Below are positions 25,831-41,229 of a stretch of 64,000 nt of DNA, in pieces. The stretch is from Saprospiraceae bacterium (lineage in GTDB: Bacteria > Bacteroidota > Bacteroidia > Chitinophagales > Saprospiraceae), in NCBI GenBank assembly GCA_029262995.1, contig JAJCYH010000024.1, positions 124,001-188,000 on the forward strand. The letters run 5' to 3'. The notes under the pieces are model-generated. The model saw only the letters and a list, made by a program, of their open reading frames with translations, was not told where the DNA came from and did not search any database. Every line of letters begins with the position of its first letter. The stretch's first letter is position 1. The position numbers were made by a program, and so were the translations under genes.

Positions 25831-26575
25831 AATACAAATATAGAGAATGTTAGTTTTGTGAGTGTAGAAAGATAAAGGGGTGTTTGCATCAAGTTATCAA
25901 AACAGAGACCGTAATAAGTTCCAATTTCCCATATAGTATCAACCCATCAAGCAGCAACATCGGTAAGCCTTCTAACAAGTGAAAATTTAATTAAACATAA
26001 CGGTAGAAGTAAGTGTGATTGCTTCCCATTCTATAGTTTTGTTCCCCATTAAACATATAAAGTCAAAGTTAATCAGATCAGTCCAAAATTGAAAATAAAA
26101 TATTCGTGTAGAGCAGCTAGTAGAGAAAAAGAACAGGTGTTAAAAATAGACTAATTATAATGGGAGTTTTGGCGAGATGAAATGCTTGTAGAAGAACTCC
26201 TTTCTTGTTTCCTAATTCCTTTTCTTCTATTGCTTGTTAAATCTTTATTTTCCATATTCTAGTGTAGAATGTGTTTGTATAACGCAAGGGGCTAGGTTTG
26301 CGTGAATAAAATTTGCGGAGCAAATGTTAGCAGCAATGCAGTCGAGTGTGAATCAAAAGTCTTGGTGAGCCTTTTTTGTAAATTTATTGGAAGCAGTTTA
26401 CTTAATTTGTAGGTCAAAACATACAATTACTAATTGGCGCAGATATTTTTCTTGTACATTGTTTTTCAAAATGATTACCTAATGTGACAGATGTATTTTT
26501 TGACATGATAACTAAAACTTTATTTAATATATCCAATATTGGCATATTGGGCAACTGTTAATTTCCGTCTGACAT
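25831..26575. other. Noncoding spacer with an isolated AACGG motif
   Basis: About 745 bases without a supported gene. CATAACGG at 25996-26003 resembles the left end of the attC-like sites, and GTTATG occurs at 23441, left of the primase gene, as a weak possible partner. A 34-codon open frame on the minus strand (26151-26255) has no recognisable features. Confidence 0.4.
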
Positions 26576-26626
26576 AACGTTTTGTGTATGGTGCGTTACA
26601 GACAGATAGGGAAGTTATGCACTATT
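26576..26626. other. attC-like imperfect hairpin with AACG end
   Basis: AACG at 26576-26579 is followed by arms TATGGTGCGTTAC (26587-26599) and GTTATGCACTATT (26614-26626), which pair over about 11 positions with wobbles and one internal mismatch. It lies 38 bases after the stop of the UvrD-like gene, in the position of an attC site after a cassette gene. I did not find matching outer inverted ends here. It could also act as a terminator. Confidence 0.45.
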
Positions 26627-26663
26627 TATAGTTTTATAGCCTTATTAAATTTTTCTTTTTTTA

Positions 26664-28445
26664 TTAACTATATAATTCTTCCAATTCAAGTTTCTTAATT
26701 CTCGACCGAATAGCACCCTTTGTTCTTTCAAAATGTTTTGAAATATCTTGCACATTAACACCTTCACAATACATCACAGTCAATTCGTCATCAAGTTCAG
26801 TTGTCCAAGGTCTGTATGCTCCATTGTATTTCTCTTTTATTTTTTTAATTGAGGTTGCTTTTTCCTTTGCGTTATTTGATTTAGACTCAGTCTTTTCGAC
26901 AACTCTTCTTTCTGGTTTATCTTTTTCGCTTTCAACACACATTACGTGTATTTGAGAAGATTTAGGAAAGTCCTTTGGCATTAATGTTTGAGGAATATGA
27001 ATACTGTTTTTTGTCCTTGTAACAGCCACATAAAGCAGGTTTATTTCTTCATTTATTTTTGAAACACTTATATCTTTCGATTTCACATCTGCTTTGAGTT
27101 TTTCTATTTTTTCTTCTGTAATGAAGTCATTTACAATTTGAATAGCATCATATTCCATTCCTTTGCACCTATGAACAGTTGAGAAAATCATTTCTGCTTT
27201 TTCTTTTTCATCATTCTCTACATGTTTGGATTTTATTTTCTTTATGATACTTGGAATTTCATTTCCGTATTCTCGTACTATTTCAATCATAAGACCGAGT
27301 TGAATATCTTCTGTTTTTTCAATATAGTCTTCTAATTCGTCAAGGTCTTTCATCTCCTTGATTAATTTGTCTCTAATCAATCTATTTTTTCCATTGTAGA
27401 GATTTAGTATATCGTAGAGAGAAGCTCCTTCATCAGCATAAGTGTATGAATTGATATTTCCTTCAAAATAAATATGCTTTATTTTCTTCTTTTCTGTTAC
27501 AAATTCAATGGCTTTAAGTAAAAGTCCAAGATTGGTTCGTGCAAGAACTGCTTTTACTTTATGCTTTTTATTTTCTCCTTTTCCAGTTATGGACAAAGGT
27601 TCGTAATTGTCTAAATGATTTTTCCAATTTAATATCTCCATTCCTAGATTAGCTACGTCTTGGCTAAATCGAAAACTTGTAGAAAGATGGTAGGTTTTAA
27701 AATCAGCCTTTTCTAATGAATTTACAGCGTGTCGCCATCCGTAAATTTGCTGGTGTGTATCACCAACAATTACTTTATTAGCTTTTTGTTTTAGAAATAC
27801 ATCAAGCATTGCAGGAGAAGCATCTTGACCTTCATCAAAAAGAATGTAATCAAAATTCAGTTTTGGGTTAGAAAGTTGAAATTTTTTGAGATAAAAATCG
27901 TGAGTGATTTCAATTTCTCCTTTGTCCATTTTACTTAATAAAAGACGAGTTTGTCCCTCTATGTAATCATAAAATGTAGTTACGAATGTTTTTGCTTTAC
28001 TGTCAGAAACAATATCCAGATAATTTAAATCTTGAATTTTTGCTTTGTTACTATTGCAGAAGTAAGCAATGAATTTATTTATATGGTTTGCAATAATATA
28101 TTTAGTGTGTTTTTCTCCGTTGCCTTGAAGCTTTAAAAGTTCAGCAACCTCATAAGTGTTGAATCCTTGGTGTCTGACTTTATAATGGTTTTTGAAAACA
28201 ATGTTTTTGTAAGCAAGGGAATGTGCAGTTTCTACAGTAACATTAGAAAGTCCTTTTTCTTGGAATTTTTTAATAGCCTCTAATTTGACCGACTTGTTAA
28301 AAGCAAGATAGAGGACTTTACTATTTTGTGGTCGAGCCTTTGCATATTCAATTACAGTGGTAGTCTTTCCAGAACCAGCAACAGCATTTATTTTAATGTT
28401 ACCAGTGGAATGGATTATGTCATATTGCTCTTTTGTCAGTTCCAT
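26664..28445 (-). CDS. UvrD/Rep-like helicase with C-terminal SANT-like helix-turn-helix
   Basis: The 593-residue superfamily 1 helicase has Walker A AVAGSGKTTT (21-30), a motif II region as FDYILFDEGQDASP (about 200), a RecA-like second domain with STVHRCKGMEYDAIQI and the motif VI context YVAVTRTKNSI. Residues about 535-590 (after a Lys-rich linker) have the pattern WTTELDDELTVMYCEGVNVQDISKHF, as in SANT/Myb-like DNA-binding domains. Such UvrD variants are found in mobile DNA and near defence genes. It is isolated on the minus strand next to the primase-helicase gene and the toxin-antitoxin pair. Cellular role is unknown. Confidence 0.85.
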   Translation of the reverse strand: MELTKEQYDIIHSTGNIKINAVAGSGKTTTVIEYAKARPQNSKVLYLAFNKSVKLEAIKKFQEKGLSNVTVETAHSLAYKNIVFKNHYKVRHQGFNTYEVAELLKLQGNGEKHTKYIIANHINKFIAYFCNSNKAKIQDLNYLDIVSDSKAKTFVTTFYDYIEGQTRLLLSKMDKGEIEITHDFYLKKFQLSNPKLNFDYILFDEGQDASPAMLDVFLKQKANKVIVGDTHQQIYGWRHAVNSLEKADFKTYHLSTSFRFSQDVANLGMEILNWKNHLDNYEPLSITGKGENKKHKVKAVLARTNLGLLLKAIEFVTEKKKIKHIYFEGNINSYTYADEGASLYDILNLYNGKNRLIRDKLIKEMKDLDELEDYIEKTEDIQLGLMIEIVREYGNEIPSIIKKIKSKHVENDEKEKAEMIFSTVHRCKGMEYDAIQIVNDFITEEKIEKLKADVKSKDISVSKINEEINLLYVAVTRTKNSIHIPQTLMPKDFPKSSQIHVMCVESEKDKPERRVVEKTESKSNNAKEKATSIKKIKEKYNGAYRPWTTELDDELTVMYCEGVNVQDISKHFERTKGAIRSRIKKLELEELYS

Positions 28446-28459
28446 TTATAAAAGCAATG

Positions 28460-28650
28460 TTTAATAATTTGTTGTTTTTATTGAATTTCTTGTTCTTGCG
28501 GTTCTTCGATATCTTCATAATCTTCCAAATCTTAAGTTGGTTGTTCTTGTTGGATAACAAATTTACTTAATGCTTTTGTAATTTTTTATACATTCGACGA
28601 ACTACAGTACATTGTTCTCCAATTTTTCTTATATTCCCAAGGGCTTAGGG
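28460..28650 (-). pseudogene. Degenerate short reading frame upstream of the UvrD-like gene
   Basis: Reading across one frameshift and one stop gives GEQCTVVRRMYKKLQK, then ALSKFVIQQEQPT, a stop, and an acidic tail DLEDYEDIEEPQEQEIQ. The composition looks like a real protein C-terminus, but I cannot name it. It precedes the UvrD-like start by a few bases. Confidence 0.25.
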
Positions 28651-28790
28651 TGTGAATATTCTTGATGGTGGTATAAGGTAGGTGACTGAACGTGTTATGA
28701 AAATTAAGTTAGTCATTTTTCTTGAATGTAGTAGGTAGGTTGTCGCCTGAGATACCGTTATGCATATTGTTCTATTCAGGTCATTTCTTT

Positions 28791-29081
28791 TTATTTGATA
28801 GCTTCAATATTTTCTATTTCTTCTTTTATAGTTTTTATTTCTTCTTCAATATCATAATCATTTTGAAGTCCAAGCCAAAATTTTGCTGTAGTATTAAAAT
28901 ATTTAGATAATCTCAAAGCTGTATCAGCGGTAATTCTTCTTTTACCATGAACTATCTGGCTAATTCTAGTTTGTGGGATATAAACATCTTTGGCTAATCT
29001 ATAAGCTGAGATATTCATAGGGTTTAAGAATTCTTCTAGTAAGATTTCTCCTGGATGAATATTGTTTAATCTTTTAGTCAT
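28791..29081 (-). CDS. higA: HigA-family antitoxin
   Basis: The 96-residue protein is an XRE-type helix-turn-helix antitoxin: NIHPGEILLEEFLNPM at the N-terminus (the HigA signature), then the HTH around residues 27-60 (RISQIVHGKRRITADTALRLSKYF). It would neutralise the toxin and repress the pair's own promoter. Its ATG overlaps the toxin stop by 8 bases, so translation is coupled. The toxin-first gene order is typical of higBA. Confidence 0.93.
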   Translation of the reverse strand: MTKRLNNIHPGEILLEEFLNPMNISAYRLAKDVYIPQTRISQIVHGKRRITADTALRLSKYFNTTAKFWLGLQNDYDIEEEIKTIKEEIENIEAIK

Positions 29082-29358
29082 GATAATCTATTATTTTAGT
29101 TTCAAAAGCATCTTTTGATTTCCATTTAAAAATGATTCTGTATTTGTCATTTATTCTAATACTATAATATCCCTTTAAGTTTCCTTTTAATCTTTCCAAG
29201 TGATTTGCTGGAGGGATTCTTAAGTCATTAATATTATGTGAATTATTAATCATTCTAAGTTTCCTTCTTGCAACATTTTGTATTGATTGAGGTAATTTCC
29301 TTGAAGGAAATCCTTTCCAAATCTTTTCCGTCTCTTCACAAGAGAATGATTTAATCAT
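29074..29358 (-). CDS. higB: HigB-type RelE/ParE-superfamily toxin
   Basis: The 94-residue toxin matches the HigB family: C-terminal pattern LKGNLKGYYSIRINDKYRIIFKW, with the basic residues used for ribosome-dependent mRNA cleavage. Length is typical. It is upstream of and overlaps the HigA-type gene by 8 bases. The pair lies in accessory DNA between attC-like sites and may stabilise the region, as toxin-antitoxin cassettes do in integrons. Confidence 0.93.
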   Translation of the reverse strand: MIKSFSCEETEKIWKGFPSRKLPQSIQNVARRKLRMINNSHNINDLRIPPANHLERLKGNLKGYYSIRINDKYRIIFKWKSKDAFETKIIDYHD

Positions 29359-29436
29359 GTCTTACGTCATTAATAACGCTAAAGGTAAGTATTTTATTTC
29401 AAAGAATCTTTAGATAGACAACTTTAATAGACTTGC

Positions 29437-29504
29437 CTAGAACGTTTAATGTATGGTGTCGTAGCATCCTGAAGGGTGCTATGCACTATACATATTATTA
29501 GTGG
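29437..29504. other. attC-like site: 20-bp imperfect hairpin with extrahelical base
   Basis: TAGAAC/AACG at 29437-29443 is followed by a stem whose arms (29448-29468 and 29473-29493) pair over about 20 positions with one unpaired T (29458) and a TGAA loop. It ends in TTAGTGGC (29497-29504), the exact reverse complement of GCCACTAA at 31081-31088. The structure of complementary outer ends, inner stem and extrahelical base matches integron attC sites. It follows the DUF6544 pair on the minus strand. Recombination is not shown. Confidence 0.6.
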
Positions 29505-29615
29505 CTGGCTTCCTTTTAAATTTTATCTAACTATTCATCCTAATAACAATTTATATTGTTTCCTTTTATTTTGTTTGTACCGAAATGTATAAGAATATTT
29601 CTTTTAACTCCTTAG

Positions 29616-29963
29616 TTAGAAATATTTTGTTAATACCCTTATCAAAACTAATATTAAAGCGAAAATAAAAATTGTAGTGAATATTTCCTTATTGTATTTC
29701 GCAATCCAATTTGGTAAAAATATATCGAAATTGTCTTTTGTTGAATTCGAGTATTTTCGGGCGATTAATGTGAGTGGACAGAACATTTTAAATAAAACTA
29801 AAACAATACCTTCACCAATTACCAACCCAACTGAAATCCATGTATAAATATTGATGCTGCCAGAAATTCCAGCGTACAGTATATAGAATATTATACTGAC
29901 AAAAAACAACCATATTAAAGTGTGTATAAATTTTATTGCAAAGAGCTTATCTGATGGTTTCAT
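29616..29963 (-). CDS. Small integral membrane protein
   Basis: The 115-residue protein has three hydrophobic segments (about 9-30, 37-60 and 92-112). Between them is the motif FCPLTLIARKYSNS and the pattern FDIFLPNWIAKYNKEIF, which I have a vague memory of from small membrane proteins next to DUF6544 proteins, but I cannot name a function. It overlaps the upstream DUF6544 gene by 17 bases, so they are translationally coupled. Confidence 0.65.
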   Translation of the reverse strand: MKPSDKLFAIKFIHTLIWLFFVSIIFYILYAGISGSINIYTWISVGLVIGEGIVLVLFKMFCPLTLIARKYSNSTKDNFDIFLPNWIAKYNKEIFTTIFIFALILVLIRVLTKYF

Positions 29964-31044
29964 TGTATTTTAAATCGATTATTTGTAAATCAAGCCATGT
30001 CCAATCTCGTTCTTCCAATTTCCAGGTTGCTTTCATCTTAGAAGGAACTTTTATATCTGAAAAGACTTTGTAACCTTCAACTGTTAATACCCATTCGTAT
30101 CGCTTTGAATCAGGTTTAACATCTTTAAATCGCATTGCCGAAAATTTCACAAAATCTCCATCTTCATTAAAGAAGAAGGTGCCACTACCTTGTGTCCCTT
30201 TATAGCTCATTGTCGCTTTTGCAGTAGTATCATTTATTTGTACCCAAGTAATATAAGGACTTAATGCCAATGAGGGAAACCATACCATTTCGCCTAAATA
30301 ACGTTGCAATGTGCCTTCATCTAATTTCTTTCCTTGTTCATTTACTACATTGATTAGCGAATTCATTTTAATCAGCATTTCACCCTTACCATTTTCAAAT
30401 TTGTCTCGACCTTGAAAGGTGAGCAAACTATTCATTTTTACATCAACTTTCCATATAAAGGCTGGATTGTCAATGGTTGTATATTGAATTGCCGAAGCAG
30501 TCATCCATTTATCTTGTTCGGGTTTCATTTTCATTTCAGCTTTCTGTGTCACTTTTCCTATGCTGATAAATGGTTTTCCAACAGCCCCAGAATTACGAAG
30601 CCAATTTTTAACAGGTTCGGGAAGCTCTTTTATGTCAATTTCATCTATGATTTTATTTTCAACTATTTTGTTATGACCTATTAAACGAATAGTTTCTTGA
30701 TGAACAAGGTTTTGAAAACGGTAATAACCAAAGGATGATAGTGAGACAACCAAAATGAAAATATTTGGTATAGTTCCGATTTTGGCATCTTTCCAAAAGA
30801 TGATTATAAGAATTTGGGAAAGTACTACTGCCGCTGTGCCGAAGAACCAAGCGTATTTTGAATTGGCTAAATACATTATTCCATAAGTCAAAAATAAGAC
30901 TGTTGCAGTTAGCCAGATAAATCCCATTGGTTTAGAAATTGGAAGTGTCAATTCTTTTACTTCCTTAAATCCAAAACCTTTTACAAACCCAAGCAAATGG
31001 ATTAGTCCGTGAAACAAAACGATAATTAAAAATACTATTCTCAT
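29947..31044 (-). CDS. DUF6544-family membrane protein
   Basis: The 365-residue protein has an N-terminal membrane part of about four segments (residues 1-105), then a soluble beta-rich DUF6544 domain beginning at ELPEPVKNWLRNSG (about 137). In that part are WKVDVKMNSLLTFQGRD and GSGTFFFNEDGDFVKF. The family has no proven function; many lie next to small membrane proteins, as here. It sits inside a segment bounded by the matching ends TTAGTGGC and GCCACTAA. Confidence 0.75.
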   Translation of the reverse strand: MRIVFLIIVLFHGLIHLLGFVKGFGFKEVKELTLPISKPMGFIWLTATVLFLTYGIMYLANSKYAWFFGTAAVVLSQILIIIFWKDAKIGTIPNIFILVVSLSSFGYYRFQNLVHQETIRLIGHNKIVENKIIDEIDIKELPEPVKNWLRNSGAVGKPFISIGKVTQKAEMKMKPEQDKWMTASAIQYTTIDNPAFIWKVDVKMNSLLTFQGRDKFENGKGEMLIKMNSLINVVNEQGKKLDEGTLQRYLGEMVWFPSLALSPYITWVQINDTTAKATMSYKGTQGSGTFFFNEDGDFVKFSAMRFKDVKPDSKRYEWVLTVEGYKVFSDIKVPSKMKATWKLEERDWTWLDLQIIDLKYNETIR

Positions 31045-31080
31045 TGTTCTTGTCTATTTGTTGAGTCGTTCTTTACGCTT

Positions 31081-31213
31081 GCCACTAACGGTAATTGATA
31101 GCGAGTGTGCGTCCTTAACCGGTTCCTATTTAAAAGTACAAATTAATTCTTCAGCCTGTATTCATCTTTACTTGAGATGAAAGATGGATACTCTGCTATC
31201 TAATGTTAGCCTT
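31081..31213. other. attC-like site, long form
   Basis: The site starts with GCCACTAACGG (31081-31091), complementary to the left end of the previous segment, and ends with GTTAGCCTT (31205-31213), the exact reverse complement of AAGGCTAAC at 34405-34413. Inside are arms GATAGCGAGT and ACTCTGCTATC that pair with one extrahelical base. At 133 bases it is in the size range of the long attC sites of chromosomal integrons. No gene lies in this gap before 31423. Confidence 0.55.
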
Positions 31214-31422
31214 TCGTTATTTTTATTTATTAATGACTAATTCTTGTCTTGATACAAATTACAGCAAATTCAGTTCCTTAAATTTCAAACATGTTTAGGG
31301 TTCCGTATCTACTGGACATATAACTTGAAGTGGGCATAGTAGGTAAATCTATTACGTCATAGCAATGTTAAATGTTTTATATAAAAAGTTAAACAAAATA
31401 AGTAGATAGATGTTTCTTAGGT

Positions 31423-31953
31423 ATGAATCAACTTCACTTATTTTTTAGTTTTTCTTTAATACTTGGTAATATGCTCCTATTCGATTTTAGCAAAGACTGT
31501 GATCTGACCAATTGGATGGTGGTAGATGACGTAGTTATGGGAGGCCGTTCTAATGGAACATTTAAAATCAACGATTCAGGCCATGGGGTATTTCAAGGCA
31601 AAGTATCCTTGGAAAATAATGGAGGTTTTTCCTCTGTACGTTATGGGTTTAATCAAAAAAATATAGCTGAACATACAAAGATAGTTTTACGATTGAAGGG
31701 AGATGGGAATCGCTATCAGTTTCGTGTAAAATCAAATTCAAACGATCGTCATTCGTATATCTATCATTTCGAGACTACTCATGACTGGCAATCCATCGAG
31801 ATTCCATTATCCGATATGAATCCCGGTTTCAGAGGAAGGACCTTAGACATACCAAATTATCAAGGGAAGTTATTAGAAGAAATCATTTTCCTGATTAGTA
31901 ATAAAAAGGAAGAGTCCTTCAAATTACAGATTGATAAGATTAGTTTGAATTAA
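31423..31953 (+). CDS. CIA30-family protein
   Basis: The 176-residue protein has a short hydrophobic N-terminus and a beta-sandwich CIA30 domain with the signature FDFSKDCDLTNWMVVDDVVMGG and FQGKVSLENNGGFSSVR (about 20-75). The domain is named after a mitochondrial complex I assembly factor and is like carbohydrate-binding folds; the bacterial function is not known. Bacteroidota often have it near photolyase-associated genes. It opens the rightward cluster ending with TspO. Confidence 0.85.
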   Translation: MNQLHLFFSFSLILGNMLLFDFSKDCDLTNWMVVDDVVMGGRSNGTFKINDSGHGVFQGKVSLENNGGFSSVRYGFNQKNIAEHTKIVLRLKGDGNRYQFRVKSNSNDRHSYIYHFETTHDWQSIEIPLSDMNPGFRGRTLDIPNYQGKLLEEIIFLISNKKEESFKLQIDKISLN

Positions 31954-32056
31954 CTAAGATATCAACATCTGCGAATCAATTAGCAAAATTGATCTAAGAA
32001 AAATCACCTAATTATAGGTCGTTCCTCAGGAATTTAATTTCAAGAAAACTAATATT

Positions 32057-32236
32057 ATGTTTAGCTTATTTAAAAAGAAATCCCCAATTAAAATTTTAAA
32101 TGATAAATATCAAAAGCTTCAGGAAGAAGCCTACAACTTATCTACCTCAAATCGCATGCAAAGTGATCAGAAATATGCAGAGGCACAAGAAGTGCTAAAA
32201 GAAATCGAAACTTTGGAAAAGAAAATTAAGGCTTAG
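32057..32236 (+). CDS. Lacal_2735-family small protein
   Basis: This 59-residue open frame reads MFSLFKKKSPIKILNDKYQK and continues with LQEEAYNLSTSNRMQSDQKYAEAQEVL to a TAG. The pattern matches the conserved Lacal_2735 family of small helical proteins in Bacteroidota, of unknown function. It lies 103 bases after the CIA30 gene and just before remnants of the photolyase-associated cluster. Confidence 0.75.
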   Translation: MFSLFKKKSPIKILNDKYQKLQEEAYNLSTSNRMQSDQKYAEAQEVLKEIETLEKKIKA

Positions 32237-32237
32237 A

Positions 32238-32378
32238 AGGAAAAAGAAATTCAAGGAGGAGGTATTAGATAGGATTAATAATCTGGTTTGGGAAGATCAG
32301 ACTCCTTTCGAAGCAATTAGATATCTGTCCACTATAATCGAATGGACAAAAAAGCATCCTTCCCTTAAGCTAGAGTAA
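32238..32378 (+). pseudogene. Remnant of a TIGR03643-like gene
   Basis: Directly after the Lacal_2735 stop an open stretch without a start reads EEVLDRINNLVWEDQTPFEAIR, close to the N-terminus of TIGR03643 proteins, then turns into unrelated residues (YLSTIIEWTKKHPSLKLE) before a TAA. The family is normally about 70-90 residues and associated with photolyase loci. This is a truncated and probably dead copy. Confidence 0.5.
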
Positions 32379-32412
32379 ATTAATTGGCTTTGCTTTAAGA
32401 AATAAATTATTT

Positions 32413-33829
32413 ATGAAAATTCTCTTAACTGGCGCCACAGGATAAATCGGTAAAAGATTACTAGCTGTACTTATAGAAAATGGGCATCATGTGATTTGTT
32501 GTGTTAGAGATACAAACAGGTTTAATCCAGATAAAGCATAGCGCCCATATATCGAAGTCTTAGAAGTAGATTTTTTAGATAAGAAATCAGTTGAAAAGAT
32601 TCCAAGAGATATTGATGGAGCCTATTATTTGTTGCACACTATGTCGGCTTCTTCTAATTATGAAGAGCTGGAAATGCGATGTGCCTCCAACTTCAGAGAA
32701 GTGATCAATAATACCAATGTCAAACATGTTATCAATTTGAGTGGTATAATAAACGAAGAATCACTATCTCGACATTTATCTTCAAGAAAAGCAGTAGAAA
32801 TAGAATTAAGGCAGGGATCCTATCATATCACTACATTGCGAGCCGGGATCATTATTGAATCTGGCAGCGCCTCTTTTGAAATCATCCGAGACCTTGTAGA
32901 AAAACTTCCAGTGATGATTACTCCAAAATGGTTGAATACCAAATGCCAACCTATAGGTATAGCGGATGTTATCCAGTTTTTGGAAAAAGTACTTTTTTAT
33001 AAGACCGTCTTTGACAAAAGTTTTGATATCGGAGGGCCAGAGGTTTTTAGTTACAAATAAATGTTACTTGGTTTTGCAAAGGTGAGAGGCCTCAAAAGGT
33101 ACATTTATACAGTGCCTGTGATGACGCCTAAACTTTCTTCCTATTGGCTATATTTTGTAACTTCTACTTCTTATAAACTCGCCTTTTCATTGGTCAGCAG
33201 TATGAAAATAGAAGTTGTTTGCCAAAATAACGATATCAATAAGCTATTGAATATTGACCCAATTGATTATGATACAGCTTTACGAAAAACACTTTATAGG
33301 ATAGAGGAGAATCATATCTTGTCCAGTTGGAAAGATTCTTGGGTGAGTGGTCAGATAGATTAAAAAAATTATAGGCGTTTTAGAAGTTCCTAAATTTGGT
33401 TGTTATACGGATAAGCAAATAAAAGTGATGGATAATCTGGAAAAAAGTATAGATAAAATATGGCAGATTGGCAGAAAAAATGGCTGGTACTATGGCAATT
33501 GGTTGTGGAGGCTAAGAGGCTTTATCGATAAAATATTTGGAGAGGTGGGATTACGTAGAGGGCGAACTCATCTTTATCATTTGTCTAGTGGTGATGCCAT
33601 TGATCTTTGGCGAGTGCTTTATGCCAATAAAGAAGAAGGGCGCTTGTTACTTTTTGCTGAGATGAAACTCCCTGGAGAAGCATGGTTAGAGTTTAAAGTA
33701 AAGGACAATGAATTACTACAAACTGCTACCTTTAGGCCTAAAGGTCTAACGGGAAGATTATACTGGTATGCGGTGCTTCCATTTCACGACTTTATTTTCA
33801 AAGGTATGATTAACGAAATAACGAAATAA
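32413..33829 (+). pseudogene. SDR - DUF2867 protein with three in-frame stops and a frameshift
   Basis: One frame from the ATG at 32413 reads MKILLTGATG, a TAA where relatives have Tyr, then IGKRLLAVLIENGHH, a TAG after NRFNPDKA, the rest of the Rossmann domain, and a TAA in FSYK(stop)MLLGFAKVRGLKR (33058). After 33363 the frame shifts in an A-run near 33365, and the C-terminal DUF2867 domain continues (GVLEVPKFGC..., then GLRRGRTHLYH, AEMKLPGEAWLEF) to 33829. The intact family is about 480 residues with NAD(P)-binding plus DUF2867. The stretches 33425-33829 could still be translated alone. Confidence 0.8.
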
Positions 33830-33835
33830 TTTGCA

Positions 33836-34294
33836 ATGCTGTATAGAGTCTTAATTTTTCTGGCACTCAATTTTGCCGCGCTTGGAATTGGTAGCTTGTT
33901 TACCTCCAGTGGCGTCTCTTCTGATTGGTATAGTAATCTCAACAAAGCACCTTGGACCCCACCGGGATGGATGTTTGGTTATGCTTGGACGACCATTATG
34001 GTTTGTTTTGCTTTCTATTTGGCACACGCTTGGAATGCGGTATCCAATCGTAATCTGCTTACTGGTCTATTTGTCGTTCAATGGAGATTGAATGTTTTAT
34101 GGAATCCGGTGTTCTTTAAATACCATGAAGCCTTCTTTGGCTTAATCGTCATCTCGACTCTCACTTTACTGCTCGGCTATTTTTTGATTAGCTATTGGAA
34201 TCAGCTCAAAATGAAGTCATTATTAATTTTACCATACTTTTTATGGTTGTTAATAGCAACATCTTTAAATGCTTATATATTGATGGAAAACTAA
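33836..34294 (+). CDS. tspO: TspO/MBR-family membrane protein
   Basis: The 152-residue protein has five hydrophobic segments and the TspO pattern: NKAPWTPPGWMFGYAWTTIM (about 37-56) and QWRLNVLWNPVFF (about 82-95), rich in Trp. TspO binds tetrapyrroles and lipids and senses or detoxifies porphyrins and light stress in bacteria. It appears intact and follows the broken SDR-DUF2867 gene by 6 bases. This neighbourhood is common near photolyases, but no photolyase is in the window. Confidence 0.9.
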   Translation: MLYRVLIFLALNFAALGIGSLFTSSGVSSDWYSNLNKAPWTPPGWMFGYAWTTIMVCFAFYLAHAWNAVSNRNLLTGLFVVQWRLNVLWNPVFFKYHEAFFGLIVISTLTLLLGYFLISYWNQLKMKSLLILPYFLWLLIATSLNAYILMEN

Positions 34295-34404
34295 AATGAT
34301 CATATAGGAATAGTTATAATATTTCAGAAGTATTTATCCTCTTTCCTGTATCAGTAAATATTCCCTTTTTAAGTGTAAGTTATATCCCTTGACTGTACCT
34401 AATG

Positions 34405-34469
34405 AAGGCTAACGTGTGGTGCATATGCCGTACCGACCGAATGGGAGCTATGGACATTATGCACGGTGT
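34405..34469. other. attC-like site with intron inserted at its 3' core
   Basis: AAGGCTAACG (34405-34414) is the exact complement of GTTAGCCTT at 31205. The stem arms GTGCATA (34419-34425) and TTATGCAC (34457-34464) pair, with bulged bases further in. The class IIC intron begins after ..CACGGT (34469); joining this to the sequence after the intron (TAGAGCC, 35144) restores GTTAGAGCC, a GTTRRR-type core. Thus the right half of the site lies beyond the intron. Confidence 0.6.
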
Positions 34470-35143
34470 GTGTGCCTGGCATGTGTGGCTACTCGAAAGG
34501 TAGCATTTTATTCTAGAGGGTGCAAGTCCCTTATACGCGAGGATGACACCTCGAAGTACTAGTAAGTCGCAAGGGTGTTAAAAATCTGAAGCCCGCCTGC
34601 CCGACGGACAGGGAAGCGATACTACAAAAGCCGATTCTAACGAACAGGAACTTGATACGGAGGCTATTAGAGTTTGGGTGAGCAAGCACATCTTTGTGAA
34701 GCCCTAAGAATACCAAAAGATTCTTTTAGTAGATCAAGTAGATATCGGCGGAAAGAATAGGCACTTACCCAGGGAGATCTCAAACTTAGTTGATGAGTAT
34801 GAGAAGTCAGCCGAGGTCATAGTACCAAGAGTAATGAGCGAGGATTGCTAAACCCATACCCTTGAAGTCTCACAACAGGGAAGGACTGAACGCTAAGTAG
34901 ATTGAAATTCGCTAAGGAGGCATTGCTAGCCTTAGCTTAAATTAGAACAAAGCCATGGAAGGTGTAAAGAGCTTTTGTGGTATGCTTGGCGAACCGCCGT
35001 AGCGCCTATGCTGAGGCTTCGGCGTAAGCATATACAGCCTGTCCCGCTGAGCGGGAAGGTCCGTACGTACGGTGGTCATGCCTTTGGCAGATAAATGTGA
35101 CAGGGCTGAGGTAGTTAACATTGACTACCTCACTCTACTCGAT
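34470..35143 (+). ncRNA. ORF-less class IIC group II intron, copy 1
   Basis: The 674-base element starts GTGTGCCTGGCATG and ends CTACTCGAT, as class IIC introns do (compared from memory with the Oceanobacillus iheyensis intron). Internal hallmarks are GGGTGCAAGTCCCT, CGCAAGGGTG, GAAGTCAGCCGAGGTCATAGTACC, GGGAAGGACTGAAC and domain V strands GAACCGCCGTA (34991) and CCGTACGTACGGTGGT (35061). There is no reverse transcriptase, so it must rely on one elsewhere. About 60 extra bases sit in the tip of domain V, and a GC-rich palindrome at 34596-34612. Confidence 0.85.
34596..34612. repeat. REP-like palindrome inside intron copy 1
   Basis: CCTGCCCGACGGACAGG is inserted between CTGAAG and GAAGC of the intron's domain I, relative to the O. 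iheyensis intron as I remember it. The same place in copy 2 has CCTGCCGGACGGACAGG (38103-38119). Confidence 0.5.
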
Positions 35144-35271
35144 TAGAGCCTGTAATATTATCTCTTCCTATAAGTAGAATAAATATCACTTAATCCACTT
35201 TCCTTAAAATATTTCAGCTACCTATTAAAAGTGAAATATCTTTTCAATATAGTAACACACTTAGGTAAAGT

Positions 35272-36882
35272 TCAGGCCTTAATAAATATTTCTGATTGTA
35301 TTATTTTTCCTTCATCATCATACAGTGAAATAATGTAATGACCATAATTATAATTTGAAAGATTAACCTTTAACTCTCTCCTATTATTGAAATCGATTTG
35401 TTTAACAGTATCAACAATAGAACTAATTGTTAAATACCCATTTCTCACCTTATCAAATCTAATATTTAAATAATTGTCTACAGGGTTAGGAAAGATCTTA
35501 AACCTAGATGTTTCTAAACTTAAATCAGAAGTGTTTGTCTTTAATCCTAAGTCATTTCCATCAACTTTAATCCAGAAATACCATTTCGGTGCTTGGAAGC
35601 CATTAAACTCTGGTGGATAAGATGGTTGTAGATATGTATAATAAACCAATAAATCATTATCAGGGGTAATGTATGCCTTAAGTGGGAAAACGTCTATATC
35701 ACTATCTTTAATGGATAGGTCTAATAAGGTATCGATCGTATTATTAGAATTTGTTTTCCAAAAATATAGATGCGTTGTTGAGTCTTTAGAAAATTCCTGG
35801 TATTCACCAATACCTAAAATATTGTTATTCTCATCGTAACCATATGCTAAAATAAATTCACCTCTTGATGCTAAGTCGATTTTATTTTCATGTTTATTAA
35901 GCAAGTTACCTTGATAATCAAATAAAAAATACTTTTGTTGATAATCGAAATCGAAACTGAAATCTCCTGCAACTTCAATCAGAAATTTTTCATCATCGTA
36001 AAAATTCATACTAATAGAAACGAGCGAATCATAATTAAAATGTTGCTGTAATTGAATTGAGTCAAATGAATGCAAGTCATAATCCATCAAAATTAGACTA
36101 CTGAAATATTGCAAATCTAATGTGGCGAAAAAAGGGGATTCTACATGAGAAATAAATCTCCTTTCATTAAATGGAAAATTTCTGTCAGTTGTGGTTTGAA
36201 AAGAGGGAAAAGAGAGAATCAAAGTATCACTTTTAACGAGATTCCCGTTATAATCTAAATCAATAGAAATGAAATCTTCATATCTTATAGAATCATCCTT
36301 TACTCTTTCCATTGTTTTAACAATGTTATATCCATTTCCAGAATTAGATATTATATTTTTACTAAATGTAAAAAATCCTTTATCAAAAACCACATTTAAA
36401 GAATCACTATGATCTGTTTGAATGTAATCTATGTTTTCACCGGTATTAACGTTCAACCTTAATAAAGCTACATGACAAGAGTCCCATCGAGGATATGTAG
36501 GATTATATATGGTACTTGATTCTTCGAATAAGAGCAATTCCAATGTATCTCCAATTAAATAAACATCATTGACCACTTTTCTTGTGTATTGTTCTTCTGA
36601 AAATTCATTATACTCCCAAATCAATTCTCCTGTATTCAAATTGATTTTCTCAACTAAAAATCCGAAAGGAGAGGGTAGAAAGTTGGTATAAACAGTAATT
36701 ATATATTCTTCTGTAATGATAGGTTCTCGAACAATGTCAAATACTTGATCATAAACAGAAATTGAGTCAACCCAAGGTTCATGCATCCATTCAACGTCGT
36801 AATCGATGAATTCAATGGGCTTTTTATTTTGACCGTATGTCAATTCGCATACTAGAATAAAAAATATGAATATCAATTTCAT
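35272..36882 (-). CDS. Secreted T9SS type A protein
   Basis: The 536-residue protein has a signal peptide (about 1-17, ending TYGQ) and a C-terminal type A sorting domain (about 465-536; FKIFPNPVDNYLNIRFD). The central 440 residues are beta-rich with repeated short blocks (for example NTGELIWEY, NTGENIDYIQTDHSD), perhaps a propeller fold. I do not recognise a specific family. It lies between the two class IIC introns, within a segment whose ends are inverted repeats (35144, 37920), with the lipoprotein gene upstream on the same strand. Confidence 0.75.
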   Translation of the reverse strand: MKLIFIFFILVCELTYGQNKKPIEFIDYDVEWMHEPWVDSISVYDQVFDIVREPIITEEYIITVYTNFLPSPFGFLVEKINLNTGELIWEYNEFSEEQYTRKVVNDVYLIGDTLELLLFEESSTIYNPTYPRWDSCHVALLRLNVNTGENIDYIQTDHSDSLNVVFDKGFFTFSKNIISNSGNGYNIVKTMERVKDDSIRYEDFISIDLDYNGNLVKSDTLILSFPSFQTTTDRNFPFNERRFISHVESPFFATLDLQYFSSLILMDYDLHSFDSIQLQQHFNYDSLVSISMNFYDDEKFLIEVAGDFSFDFDYQQKYFLFDYQGNLLNKHENKIDLASRGEFILAYGYDENNNILGIGEYQEFSKDSTTHLYFWKTNSNNTIDTLLDLSIKDSDIDVFPLKAYITPDNDLLVYYTYLQPSYPPEFNGFQAPKWYFWIKVDGNDLGLKTNTSDLSLETSRFKIFPNPVDNYLNIRFDKVRNGYLTISSIVDTVKQIDFNNRRELKVNLSNYNYGHYIISLYDDEGKIIQSEIFIKA

Positions 36883-36935
36883 AGAATGTATATTGAAAGG
36901 TGCCCATTTTCAGAGGCACCTTAAGTTATATAATT

Positions 36936-37754
36936 TTAAAAAACTATAAGGCAGTCATGTTCACAATTCTCAGTTGAATGTAACCCTTCGCACGAGAGAG
37001 ATCCTGTACACTCTCCTAATGAACTCCATTGTCCATCTTGGACAATCACTAAATTTCCATTCTCATCAGCACAAATCTTCTTTCTTTTATAACAACACAA
37101 GTCTCCCTCGTATACTCGTCTTTCTAGTATCCAGCCTCCTAAACCTTGTGGAGGTAAATAACAATATTGGAAACATAGAGTTGTTACCCTTGTAACTGAT
37201 ACAGGTTCTTCAAGGAATTCGCAACCACCATTATATTGACCAAATATATTGTTGACTTCGATTAATTCTACTACTTCAGAAAATTCTCTTTCCAAATCAA
37301 TTAAATATGACTCTAATGCACCTACTCCAGAAGGCGGATTAAAACTAGGGCATGAAGAAATAAGAGCAGTATAATCAATTTTAAAATCAGAAATCACGAT
37401 GTTAATCACCTTTGATCCTGCGATACACCATGAAAGCGTATAACTAACTGGAACTGATGTACAAGTCCCAGACAAACTTGTTCCGAAAGTTGGAACAGAA
37501 GCGTTTACAAACTGTACAAAACAAGAAGATGATCCGGTGCCAACTAAATCTTCTGCTTTAAGGGAACAAGAATCTCCCTGTCCTTTTTTAAGATTGCTAT
37601 CGATTGTTCTGTTCTTAAGAAACTCGGCAAATATTTTTTCATCTAATGATACAGTTTCTATTTTTTGATCATCTTGAAGGTCAGTTTTAGTATTGTCTTT
37701 ACTACAAGAAAAGACGAAAAACAACATGAAAATAAATAACAATAAATTTTTCAT
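36936..37754 (-). CDS. Cys-rich lipoprotein of unknown function
   Basis: The 272-residue protein has a lipoprotein signal (FVFSCS, Cys17), a linker, and a body with many Cys residues (at least 16) concentrated after residue 60, including CCYKRKK and CEHDC near the end. Disulfide-rich surface proteins of this type are not assigned. It is 53 bases upstream of the T9SS cargo gene on the same strand, so they may form an operon. A 42-base palindrome stands 36 bases before its start. Confidence 0.6.
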   Translation of the reverse strand: MKNLLLFIFMLFFVFSCSKDNTKTDLQDDQKIETVSLDEKIFAEFLKNRTIDSNLKKGQGDSCSLKAEDLVGTGSSSCFVQFVNASVPTFGTSLSGTCTSVPVSYTLSWCIAGSKVINIVISDFKIDYTALISSCPSFNPPSGVGALESYLIDLEREFSEVVELIEVNNIFGQYNGGCEFLEEPVSVTRVTTLCFQYCYLPPQGLGGWILERRVYEGDLCCYKRKKICADENGNLVIVQDGQWSSLGECTGSLSCEGLHSTENCEHDCLIVF

Positions 37755-37790
37755 AATCTATAATTAAATGTTGAACAATCAACAATTAAT

Positions 37791-37832
37791 CTGTTTATCC
37801 TCAATCATACTGGTATGATTGAGGATAAACAG
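37791..37832. other. Near-perfect 42-base palindrome upstream of the lipoprotein gene
   Basis: Two perfectly complementary 20-base arms (37791-37810 and 37813-37832; starting CTGTTTATCC, ending GGATAAACAG) flank TG. There is no T-run on either side. The location, upstream of the start rather than downstream of a stop, does not fit an ordinary terminator. It may be a regulator site, a cruciform, or the stop of a transcript from the right. Confidence 0.6.
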
Positions 37833-37911
37833 TAAATAAAGATGTTGAAATTATTCCATAAAAACAAGCAAGAGTTTCCTAAACTAAGTAAATTAATTAT
37901 AATTAGATTAT

Positions 37912-37976
37912 AGGCTCTAACGGTTAGTACATGCGTCGTGGCGGCGTTTAGCTGACATGATCGTTATGTACATTGT
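37912..37976. other. attC-like site upstream of the second intron
   Basis: AGGCTCTAACGG (37912-37923) is complementary to TTAGAGCCT at 35143-35151. Stem arms GTACAT (37927-37932) and ATGTAC (37966-37971) pair with further wobbles and one extrahelical T. The second intron follows at 37977 after ACATTGT. A GTTRRR-type right core is not seen beyond this intron, so this site is incomplete or rearranged. Confidence 0.5.
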
Positions 37977-38607
37977 GTGTTCCTGGCATGTGTGGCTACT
38001 CGAAAGGTAGCATTTTAATCTAGAGGGTGCAAGTCCCTTATACGCGGGGGTGACACCTCGAAGTATTAGTAAGTCGCAAGGGTGTTAAAAATCTGAAGGC
38101 CGCCTGCCGGACGGACAGGGAAGCGAGACTACAAAAGTCGGTACCTACGAATAGTGAATTAAGAGGAGTTTCTGAAAGAAACCAAAGACATAGAAATGTC
38201 TTTGGCGAAATGAACCGCTTGCGGACGGGCTGGCAATGTTTAATAATCAGAGAAAGAAGTCAGCAGAGGTCATAGTACCTGGAAAAACGAGTAAGGATTG
38301 CTAAACCCATACCCTTGAAGCCTCACAACAGGGAAGGACTGAACGCTAAGTAGATTGAAAATCGCTAAGGAGGCATCGCTAGCCTTAGCTTAAATTAGAA
38401 CAAAGCCATGGAAGGTGTAAAGAGCTTTTGTGGTATGCTTGGCGAACCGCCGTAGCGCCTATGCTGAAGCTTCGGCGTAAGCATATACAGCCTGTCCCGC
38501 AGAGAGGGAAGGTCCGTACGTACGGTGGTGACACTTATGCTGAAGCTTCAGCGCAAGTATGTGAGAGGCGCATCGTGGGCTTTATTGCTCACGGCCGTCT
38601 ACTCGAT
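37977..38607 (+). ncRNA. ORF-less class IIC group II intron, copy 2
   Basis: The 631-base element begins GTGTTCCTGGCATG (the fifth base is T where copy 1 has G) and ends CTACTCGAT. It shares long near-identical stretches with copy 1, including GAAGTCAGCAGAGGTCATAG and the GGGAAGGACTGAAC region. Domain V strands are GAACCGCCGTA (38444-38454) and CCGTACGTACGGTGGT (38514-38529), again with about 60 extra bases in between. A second insertion lies between domain V and domain VI (38530-38558). No ORF is present; the open frame across 38428-38640 is intron RNA, not protein. Confidence 0.85.
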
Positions 38608-38646: not shown

Positions 38647-39516
38647 TTAATCAAGCTCAAGGGGAAGATTGTGGTCTGAGCACCATTCAATTAGTCCACC
38701 GTCGTAAACAGCCACATTCTGATGCCCAAGCAAGTGAAGAATAAAGGCATCGCTGGAGGCGGCAATCCCACCACCACAATACGTGATTACACGTTTCGCA
38801 TCTAGTATTGGTTCGAATAAAGCATGTAACTCCTCAAGTGGGCGGAAACGTTTAGTCTCACGATCAAGTATTTCCCACGCCGTTACGTTTTTTGCTCCGG
38901 GGATGTGCCCTCTTCTACCGTATTCGTTGCGTTCGCCACGGTGTTGACGTCGACCCAAAGCACTTACAATACATGTTTCCTTCTGATTAATTGCGTTAAA
39001 AACTTCCATTTTGTCAGCAATCAAATCTGGATTATATCTTGGAGTAAAAGTAGCAGTAGGATAAACACTTTGCTTTGATGAAATTGGTCTGTTTTCAAGG
39101 TTCCAAGCCATCCAACCTCCATTGAGAACAGCCGCATTTTCAAATCCAAAAGTTCTGAGCATCCACCATAACCTTGCGGCCCACATATTTTCACGTTCGT
39201 CATAGATAACTACTCGACTATCTTCATAAATTCCTAGACGACTCATAAACTTAGCAAAGTGTTCCTCACTTGGCATAGTAAAACTTCGTGTAGACGCTTT
39301 AGGATCTGAAATTTTGAGTAAATCTGCAAATACTGCACCTGGAATGTGTCTTCGTTTGAACTTGTGTTTACCACTTATAACACGGGGAAAAGGCCAAAGT
39401 TTCACTTGTACAGTGGCATCAACTATTCGTAGATCAGGATCATCAAGATGCTCCTCCAACCACTTAGTTTCGACAAGAGGCTTTAAAAGGTTCTTCGATG
39501 ATGTGTCTTTATTCAT
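38647..39516 (-). CDS. Sulfurtransferase with two rhodanese domains
   Basis: I chose the ATG at 39516 (MNKDTSSK...), because the upstream 38 codons to 39630 overlap the recombinase remnant and look noncoding; this gives 289 residues. It has two rhodanese domains: the first with VVIYDERENMWAARLWW, the second with the active-site cysteine in ITYCGGGIAASS (near residue 250) and GHIPGA in both. Thiosulfate/3-mercaptopyruvate sulfurtransferases move sulfur to cyanide or thiols. It is between the second intron and the recombinase pseudogene, on the minus strand. Confidence 0.85.
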   Translation of the reverse strand: MNKDTSSKNLLKPLVETKWLEEHLDDPDLRIVDATVQVKLWPFPRVISGKHKFKRRHIPGAVFADLLKISDPKASTRSFTMPSEEHFAKFMSRLGIYEDSRVVIYDERENMWAARLWWMLRTFGFENAAVLNGGWMAWNLENRPISSKQSVYPTATFTPRYNPDLIADKMEVFNAINQKETCIVSALGRRQHRGERNEYGRRGHIPGAKNVTAWEILDRETKRFRPLEELHALFEPILDAKRVITYCGGGIAASSDAFILHLLGHQNVAVYDGGLIEWCSDHNLPLELD

Positions 39517-39691
39517 AGTATTTAATTTTCGGTTATTAATTCCTGTGTAGTTGCACACAACTAGTATATAGTCCTTTGAAAGATAATTAATATAAATTAA
39601 CTGGGAGGTAAGGCTTATGAAAATTAACACTATAAATCCAATTCTTCTAAAGGACTCCTAACTTCTCCAAGCCTCTTACCACTTACGTGGG

Positions 39692-39978
39692 TTTACCCCG
39701 TGAGATAGGTATTTAGTCTATTTTTTATATATCTCTTACCCCAAGCTGTTTTAAGATACTTTTCTCTTTTTGTAGCATCTTTAGAATTCAAGCCTCCTTC
39801 CCAATAAACTAATTTTAAAGGAACTCTATTTTTCGTAGATTTAACTCTTCCTTTATTATGTTCGTTAAGCCGGGCTAATATATTTTGAGTATAACCTGTA
39901 TAAAAGTTTTTATCTTTTTCTGATTGTAAAACATAAACATAATAGTACATATTCAATAAGTATATCTCATGGGGTAAA
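39692..39978 (-). mobile_element. GIY-YIG element with 16-base inverted ends
   Basis: TTTACCCCGTGAGATA (39692-39707) and TATCTCATGGGGTAAA (39963-39978) are inverted repeats with 15 of 16 matches, and flank a single GIY-YIG gene. The right end encodes part of the new C-terminus of the recombinase fragment (IYPMRYTY), and the stop codon of the GIY-YIG gene lies in the left end. Removing the element rejoins IY to THVSGKRL. Single-gene nuclease elements of this kind seem common in Bacteroidota genomes. Confidence 0.7.
39693..39956 (-). CDS. GIY-YIG nuclease-like protein
   Basis: The 87-residue protein matches the UvrC-like/SLX1-like GIY-YIG fold: YYVYVLQSEKDKNFYTGYT (the GIY..YIG pair as YVYVL and FYTGYT), then the catalytic Arg/Glu context LNEHNKGRVKSTKNR and KLVYWEGG. 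The first and third Met (39956, 39950) are both possible starts. The last codons and the stop lie in the element's left inverted repeat. Its nuclease could cleave the target at recombinase genes; this is inference. Confidence 0.85.
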   Translation of the reverse strand: MNMYYYVYVLQSEKDKNFYTGYTQNILARLNEHNKGRVKSTKNRVPLKLVYWEGGLNSKDATKREKYLKTAWGKRYIKNRLNTYLTG

Positions 39979-41229
39979 TCATAGTCGTCTTCGGACTATT
40001 ATGACCAAGAATCTCTTGAATGTAACGCAATCCAACACCAGACTCAAGCAAATGCGTTGCATAAGAATGTCTTAAAGTATGTAACGTAACTCTAATACCG
40101 ATATTAGCCTTTTTGACAGATCTTCTTAAGATAGATTGTGCACTAGAAGCAGAATATGGCTCTCCTTCCAATCCTTCAAAAAGATGATCTTCTGGCTTAC
40201 AAGCAATTCGATATTCTTCAATCATCTTTATCATTGTTTTTGACAATGGAACTCGTCGGTCCTTTTTACCCTTGCTATTTCTGATATACAAAAGATGCTC
40301 CTCAATTCTTATATCAGTCAACTTAAGCCTTAAAGCTTCACCAATCCTTAGACCTGCTCCATAAATCACAGTTAATAAACATTTGTGCTTTATATTAACA
40401 CATGATAGCAAAATAGACCTTACCTCTTCTTTTGAAAGTACGTTGGGAAGGTATTGTATCTTTCTAGGACGCTCAATTTCTTCCGAGATAATATCTTCCT
40501 TTGAATACAAATTGTAAAAGATTTTTAAGGTGCTAACAAATTGATTCTGCGCTGAATGTGATTTATTTTTTAGTACAAACTCATTATAATTGAAATCCTC
40601 TATATCTTCAGTCGTAAGATCATCCCACTTTATACCTTTAATATTTGAAAAAAATACTTCAAGGCACTGGAATAAGAGTTTATTGTACTGTGACTGTATC
40701 TTTTTTGTTTCATGTAATTACTCATTTTCTCAATTTTGAGAAGAGTATCTGAATCAATAAATCTCTTTTCACCTGGTTCAATCGTTTCTATTCTTCTTGA
40801 GGGAATAATATTTCGCTTTATAATTTTTTCCTCTACTTCCTTTGTTTTAATAACATCCTCGTCGAAATGTATGCTTGAATAATCTACGACCCATGAATGC
40901 CTTTTGGCCAACAAAAGAAATGATTTGAAATAAGAATATCAAAACGGCATAAACGAACAAGAATCCATTTTTGACCATTTCGTAAATGGGGGACCCAAAA
41001 CCAATTTACTTACATCAGGGTTCGCTCTAAAATAAATGCCTATATAGTTAGAATGATATTGATCAATAAGGACAAGCTTGATAAGTGGCGTTTTCTTTGA
41101 TTCCATTTCGCATTGATGGTGATAATCCCATATGGCAAAAAATTTAAATTGTAAACAGGTCAATTGAATAAAGAAGCAGCTGCCGAAAATCCAACAACTG
41201 CTTATACTATAATTGCCTTAATCTATAAC

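Follow-up and report, generated by a model that had tools for sequence, protein, structure and literature searches.

What kind of recombination system assembled the row of end-matched gene segments found in a 64,000-nucleotide stretch of a Saprospiraceae bacterium genome (assembly GCA_029262995.1, contig JAJCYH010000024.1, positions 124,001 to 188,000; the whole stretch is referred to below as the window)? The host, whose 3.77 Mb genome is 97.7% complete, is placed in the class Bacteroidia and is Saprospiraceae-like. A previous sequence-only reading had taken three consecutive segments with complementary ends next to attC-like hairpins for integron cassettes, had linked them to a nearby tyrosine recombinase remnant, and had proposed an active IntI-like system; its integron interpretation is largely supported here. 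The window contains a decayed cassette array made of five attC-like hairpins (S0 to S4, from left to right), three consecutive end-matched segments and two group II introns, and we conclude with high confidence that it is what remains of a Bacteroidia integron run by a dedicated tyrosine recombinase, belonging to an array-associated family for which we use the name HARP-Int. Judging by their gene and site content, relatives harbor complete systems in which an integrase, an attI-like core and an attC array follow one another in a single direction.

The three matched pairs that bound the segments are present in the sequence, at positions that differ by at most one base from those first given: TTAGTGGC at 29498 and GCCACTAA at 31081, GTTAGCCTT at 31205 and AAGGCTAAC at 34405, and TTAGAGCCT at 35143 and AGGCTCTAA at 37912. 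Exact inverted matches of eight bases lying 0.5-4 kb apart are frequent in this region (1442 within 26.0-38.6 kb), and the three pairs are therefore informative only because they are located at hairpin borders. There, each pair agrees at 6/6 variable bases, against 2 or 4 of 6 for wrong partners, and the chance of a 6/6 agreement estimated from base composition is about 4e-4 per pair. The segments thus delimited, whose two ends are in each case complementary to each other, are cassette 1 (29498-31089, minus strand; TTAGTGGC / GCCACTAAC), cassette 2 (31205-34413, plus strand; GTTAGCCTT / AAGGCTAAC) and cassette 3 (35143-37921, minus strand; TTAGAGCCT / AGGCTCTAA).

The same cassette design, with complementary ends that belong to the segment, is found in the arrays of relatives. 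For 49 segments between neighbouring sites from 15 loci, the window included with its hand-placed site S2, one end box was reverse-complemented and compared with the other over the 7 bases after GTT. The ends match at 5 or more of the 7 variable bases in 27/49 segments, against 3.7% of 3748 cross-locus pairs taken as the null; in 20000 permutations the maximum was 11 matching segments and the mean 2.3. Two boxes within one site agree at the null level (mean 2.2 versus 2.1), and 24/45 segments still match when the four window segments are removed. The window segment between S3 and S4 scored 5 with a box lying inside an intron, and matches fully once this intron is omitted. A second set, drawn from the 80 loci described below plus L055 and L127, gave 15/20 matching segments; ten of these 20 had already been tested (L055, L127, and L131, which is the same as L222), and 7/10 of the new ones match. 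Tandem attC-like sites bounding cassettes with complementary own ends, as in integrons, are thus found in this family of loci, and such matching is a prediction of circular cassettes, not of terminators or repeats.

Canonical attC sites read RYYYAAC, then AA, a hairpin, and then CGTTRRRY. In this reading the window sites lie on the minus strand, and the plus strand, which the sequence-only reading had taken for the top strand, is the canonical bottom strand. The junction hairpins are real. A first model (R1) was built from seven sites, namely S0, S1, S3 with its intron omitted, S4 and three pattern-found sites in relatives; its re-finding of the four window sites is by construction, as they belong to the training set. 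Independent support comes from R1 matches in 40/120 genomes at an E-value of 0.01, the window's own included, often clustered in one direction and 0.6-4 kb apart, and from the base-pair changes in a larger set of sites. A second model (R2) was built from 59 matches, of which 56 are distinct. Over these 56 sites, two-sided changes were seen at 17/20 base pairs and none of 500 shuffles scored as high, in an alignment that was fitted to the model and so favours structure. With DNA parameters, the canonical bottom strand folds more stably in 53/56 sites, which had been picked by a model of the favoured strand, a choice that favours this outcome; imperfect attC hairpins with a favoured bottom strand are thus present among model-chosen sites. 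In the window, the minus-strand sites are S0 (26571-26642, matched by R1 and R2, left of a UvrD-like segment), S1 (29436-29506; R1 85.8 bits, R2 76.7 bits), S2 (31081-31213), S3 (34405-34467; R1 57.3 bits) and S4 (37913-37974; R1 52.7 bits, R2 58.6 bits). S2, which has a long loop, was detected by neither R1 nor R2; it was placed by hand from its fold.

The proposed link between the segments and the recombinase remnant is upheld by relatives in which integrases and arrays share a locus. The window recombinase (39953-40914, minus strand) stands at the head of the array and is frameshifted, with a spacing of 91 residues between its GLR and HxLRH motifs, as in the HARP-Int family. Presence of HARP-Int was defined as a match below 1e-40 to the L053 protein, a threshold set once the values were known: 60/120 genomes match below it, and the best matches of the other 60, at about 1e-21 to 1e-36, are XerC/D-like. 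R1 matches and HARP-Int co-occur, the latter being present in 31/40 genomes with R1 matches versus 29/80 without (p 1.7e-5). Around 20 HARP-Int loci, R2 found 11 matches in four loci, 10 of them downstream of the integrase, and 20 XerC/D-type control loci gave 0 matches. A scan of the collection with a five-row alignment found 319 relatives, of which 80 loci were retained, mostly from Saprospiraceae and Lewinella-like bacteria, and also from Rufibacter immobilis, Algoriphagus, Bacteroidales and a few metagenome-assembled genomes of other groups. In this set R2 (E 0.1) found 36 sites in 19 loci (two of which, L222 and L224, are contigs of the earlier L131 and L129). Although 633 kb was searched upstream and 246 kb downstream, 36/36 are downstream and point the same way as the integrase. 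The contig stops no more than 500 bp downstream of the integrase match in 27/80 loci, versus 1/80 for the upstream side; for instance, the L126 contig ends at GGGAGTTA, 35 bp past the last sense codon.

An attI-like site beside the integrase that shares the box of the first cassette was also found in relatives. In 14/21 loci, the GTT box that best matches the end of the first cassette (6-7 of 7 bases) lies 15-280 bp past the integrase match, and these 14 loci have a common TTGCG-ATATACA-GTG^TT-like consensus before the cross-over point. Accessory repeats are known from class 1 attI, and the stretch between the integrase stop codon and the attI core in L131 (7950-8045) contains direct repeats that resemble them, in which a ATATGAGTTGCGTAA-like sequence occurs twice in close form and once in a looser one.

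Sequence comparisons make HARP-Int a relative of IntI and not a canonical IntI. The proteins beside arrays have 389 (L053), 585 (L055) and 469 residues (L131). The GLR-HxLRH spacing is 91-92 in the 25 measurable of 28 HARP-Ints, 96-112 in 19/20 Xer proteins, and, among the 26 measurable of 30 extracted canonical IntI, 133 in 23 and 105 in three; HARP-Int is 35-41 residues shorter than IntI at the IntI-specific domain and does not carry this insertion, and the match of the IntI profile to the window recombinase is interrupted between positions 176 and 240. Scores for the IntI family TIGR02249 all fall below the cut-off of 265 bits (window fragment 153.8, L053 200.5, L055 196.4), and the window's genome has only sub-threshold matches, the frameshifted recombinase among them. 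The best NCBIfam match of HARP-Int is NF040815 (XerA-type), also below its cut-off. In a tree with XerC/D as the sole outgroup, from which XerA was absent and L117, L128, L104, L115, L122 and L134 were left out, HARP-Int and IntI split from XerC/D with 100/100 support, Xer proteins standing alone on their own branch; IntI is next to one HARP-Int group, with a support of 80/89 that is not decisive, and the window sequence forms a long branch. The recombinase part of an AlphaFold2 model of the L131 protein (predicted local distance difference test score, pLDDT, 84.7) is closest to XerA and IntI4. HARP-Int shares its fold and catalytic residues with XerA, XerC and XerD, and XerA is among its best structural matches, but it differs from the XerC/D of the same genomes in its separate branch and in the R2 sites nearby, absent from the 20 control loci.

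At the N-terminus, members of the family carry repeats that resemble HARP domains. The Pfam HARP domain (PF07443, cut-off 25 bits) is recognized in the L055 integrase with 35.4 bits (7.6e-9); at E 0.01 it is found in 3/24 members, and in others a likeness is visible in the alignment only. For the modelled N-terminus of L131, Foldseek ranked 4o66, a solved HARP domain, first with a weak E-value of 0.22; an N-terminal profile compared with solved structures also reached 4o66, at a weak E-value of 0.45, and VIA-align gave as its best match the XPB N-terminus (Z 5.9), 4o66 not being among the 50 rows listed. These comparisons hint that the N-terminal domain might adopt a HARP fold.

Several observations weigh against the conclusion that HARP-Int ran this array and its counterparts. 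Nine of the 40 R1-positive genomes have no HARP-Int match below 1e-40. R2 sites are missing from 61/80 and 16/20 HARP-Int loci, many of them where the contig ends, and some HARP-Ints may do something else. The single R2 match of L124 lies upstream of the integrase; of the ten R2 sites of L053, nine lie past the integrase and the tenth overlaps its start; and in the window's genome an attC-like site (L001, R2 35.1 bits) lies just upstream of a second broken recombinase, which has two in-frame stops (L001:1501-2287). In seven of 21 loci the 300 bp next to the integrase contain no attI match, and in the window, where attI was sought as a partner of the right box of S4, no convincing candidate emerged. 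The ends of the window segment from S0 to S1 (26571-29436) do not match, nor do those of 22/49 segments overall. Matching falls from 19/24 segments of up to 1.2 kb to 8/25 longer ones, as expected if long segments contain missed sites; most of the non-matching ones are long and may do so. Finally, no window cassette was located elsewhere among the 120 relatives, where the sequence-only reading would have had copies sought. With window positions 26-41 kb as DNA query, 71/120 relatives match, for the most part within coding sequence and with 63-77% identity; the DUF6544 segment matches at its attC only and no match was seen inside the T9SS (type IX secretion system) segment. As no recent copy of the window cassettes was found elsewhere, the case for their mobility is based on end matching.

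Could the array have been built in trans by a canonical IntI, leaving a cluster of attC sites lacking an integron integrase (CALIN) beside an unrelated HARP-Int? Without its broken recombinase the window would indeed be called a CALIN, and canonical IntI is frequent in the rest of the phylum: in 392 sampled genomes (completeness of at least 90 requested), 107 have an IntI above cut-off, 32 have R2 matches at 1e-4, and 9 of these 32 have both. One of the nine, G169, belongs to another class and carries IntI (C18:74583-75524) and an R2 site (123641-123704) 49 kb apart on one contig, and G041, a member of the window's own family, has a canonical IntI; R2 found no site within the 12 kb surrounding this gene (L312). 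However, in the eight other genomes with both, the listed R2 matches are on other contigs or more than 1 Mb from IntI, and except for G041, the listed IntI-positive genomes are labelled as the same phylum only, not the same class. In addition, no TIGR02249 match exceeds the cut-off in the nearly complete genome of the window. An integrase of another family stands at the head of the array, which distinguishes the window from a CALIN, and in relatives HARP-Int heads arrays with a matched attI in two thirds of the 21 loci, all 36 R2 matches of the larger set lying downstream of it. Action of IntI in trans is thus improbable.

Chance matching was considered first, and was rejected for the family of loci despite the abundance of raw inverted 8-mers. 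The hairpins, which are conserved intergenic inverted repeats, could on this account be transcription terminators or intergenic repeats of the repetitive extragenic palindromic (REP) kind, their matched ends being coincidental. Yet matching tracks the segment and not the site, at a rate far above the cross-locus null; attI matches adjoin the integrase, the placement and direction of the sites follow it, and the Xer-control loci are devoid of R2 matches, so that we consider this explanation very unlikely. Equally unlikely, in our view, is that no site-specific integrase took part and that the segments were introduced by group II introns or through repeats that recombined with one another by homology. 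Introns do sit in 2/5 window sites, but the arrays of relatives show the same end matching, and when L053-L072 and L123-L142 were searched by blastn with the window introns, no match appeared. Homologous exchange between repeats, for its part, would not leave every segment with a complementary pair of ends specific to it.

If HARP-Int acts as an integron integrase, it would cut at the G^TT boxes of folded attC hairpins in circular cassettes, whose two ends would pair in the circle, and also at attI just downstream of its own gene, thereby capturing and excising cassettes. The folded bottom strand would be its substrate. HARP binds branched DNA, and HARP-like domains might help to bind the folded strand in place of the missing IntI-specific part. 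What is observed comprises covarying hairpins, ends that match within a given cassette, an integrase followed by attI and then by the attC array, and a common direction. That the recombinase is related to IntI bears out one half of the "active IntI-like system" that had been proposed, but it is shorter at the IntI-specific domain and has HARP-like N-terminal domains. Activity in the window itself is not sustained: its recombinase is probably dead, and since the gene is frameshifted the array is probably static. Uninterrupted integrases adjoin arrays in relatives, and some of these systems may be active today.

The similarity to chromosomal integrons is extensive. Both have an integrase, an attI site and a tandem series of cassettes, each closed by an attC hairpin with a G^TT box; cassette-specific complementary ends, a bottom strand that folds best, cassette genes mostly in the attC direction, and a toxin-antitoxin pair in the cargo are shared as well. 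The differences, besides those of the protein (the shorter interval between GLR and HxLRH and the HARP-like N-terminal domains), are that the boxes depart from GTTRRRY beyond GTT, and that HARP-Int and the cassettes are read in one direction, attI coming after the integrase stop codon, whereas the usual arrangement has intI facing away from the cassettes.

Searches of open-licence PubMed Central (PMC) papers turned up no description of an integron integrase with HARP domains, nor of Bacteroidia arrays like these. HARP-Int members may already be present, unnamed, in the integron-like subgroup of PMC8138268, where the specific insertion is described as "not fully conserved". For Bacteroidetes proper, the IntegronFinder 2.0 survey names one complete integron, in Salinibacter ruber (PMC9024848), and reviews count Bacteroidota among the integron-bearing phyla. 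In PMC4792948 the acquisition of the IntI-specific domain is put forward as an early step of integrons. Within the window and its relatives, we find an integron architecture without this domain, so that both its necessity and its early acquisition become testable. The domain is reportedly necessary for activity, as the title of a 2001 paper by Messier and Roy has it. A broader proposal, that HARP-Int integrons are a widespread second kind whose repeated HARP-like domains recognize hairpins, the task of the IntI-specific domain elsewhere, and that canonical IntI arose within this family, integrons having begun without the IntI-specific domain, is in our view somewhat less likely than not. Surveys of integrons rely on the IntI gene. 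These loci open a little-surveyed pool of cassettes in Saprospiraceae, Cytophagales, Bacteroidales and relatives, and allow new tests of how integrons arose and how they work.

Two group II introns without open reading frames (ORFs), overlooked by the sequence-only reading, interrupt the array. The first (34468-35143, plus strand, the canonical bottom strand; its ends are deduced from the two window copies) lies in S3 and scores 85 bits with Rfam RF02001 (cut-off 32) and 34.6 bits with RF01998 (cut-off 35); it separates S3 from the remainder of its box, TAGAGCC at 35144-35150, and with the intron omitted S3 reads GTTAGAGCC again. The second (37975-38607, plus strand; RF01998 38 bits) cuts S4; two stretches of it, of 191 and 275 bp, share 91% and 95% identity with the first. 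Group II ribozyme domains were found in the window introns, and no reverse transcriptase was seen with them. Both directly follow an attC stem, lie on the bottom strand and run opposite to most cassette genes. Group IIC-attC introns, as described in PMC7923331, likewise insert into the bottom strand of attC, with an orientation opposite to that of the cassette genes and in most cases at TTGT/T. Insertion at an attC box on the bottom strand is thus shared, whereas the window introns are preceded by CGGT and CATT where TTGT would be usual, and after the second intron the 3' exon has G in place of T as its first letter. Related ORF-less introns start at or in R2 sites at L305:1325-1394, L306:1819-1889 and L310:1747-1817, and another starts 34 bp after an R2 site (L307:1703-1772); no R2 site was found in L302 and L303, and none beside the intron in L304. 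As related introns start in or just after attC-like hairpins, this intron family seems to seek these sites.

The cargo of the array is diverse. To the right of S0 lie a UvrD-like helicase gene (26664-28445, minus strand), for whose segment no partner end was found in the window, and HigA antitoxin and HigB-like toxin genes (28791-29358, minus strand), with a weak partner end at 28769 (2/10 mismatches); the HigBA stretch has a 71% identical counterpart inside an attC array of a genome of the same genus (L066). Cassette 1 encodes a DUF6544/DUF6920 protein and a 115-residue ORF for which the search gave no family match, and cassette 2 a CIA30 gene, broken ORFs and a TspO gene. Cassette 3 has ORFs of 536 and 272 residues, for which T9SS protein and lipoprotein are labels of the sequence-only reading. 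Genes are on the minus strand in the DUF6544, 536/272-residue, HigBA and UvrD segments and on the plus strand in the CIA30-TspO segment. Between recombinase and array lies a 327-residue ORF (38647-39630, minus strand), sulfurtransferase-like as far as its translation suggests, whose membership in the array is uncertain. The minus-strand ORF right after the recombinase (39693-39956), which reads as possibly GIY-YIG-like, is 66.7% identical over 240 bp to L127:9113-9348, likewise located directly after a recombinase. To the left of the array, positions 23692-25830 encode a TOTE-type primase and helicase protein (AEP-TOTE, ResIII), which may represent a defence-like element. Among relatives, a 164-bp stretch beginning one base ahead of an attC AAC box is 98.8% identical in the genomes of two families (L057:3937-4099 and L071:7154-7317), likely the trace of a recent transfer of a cassette end.

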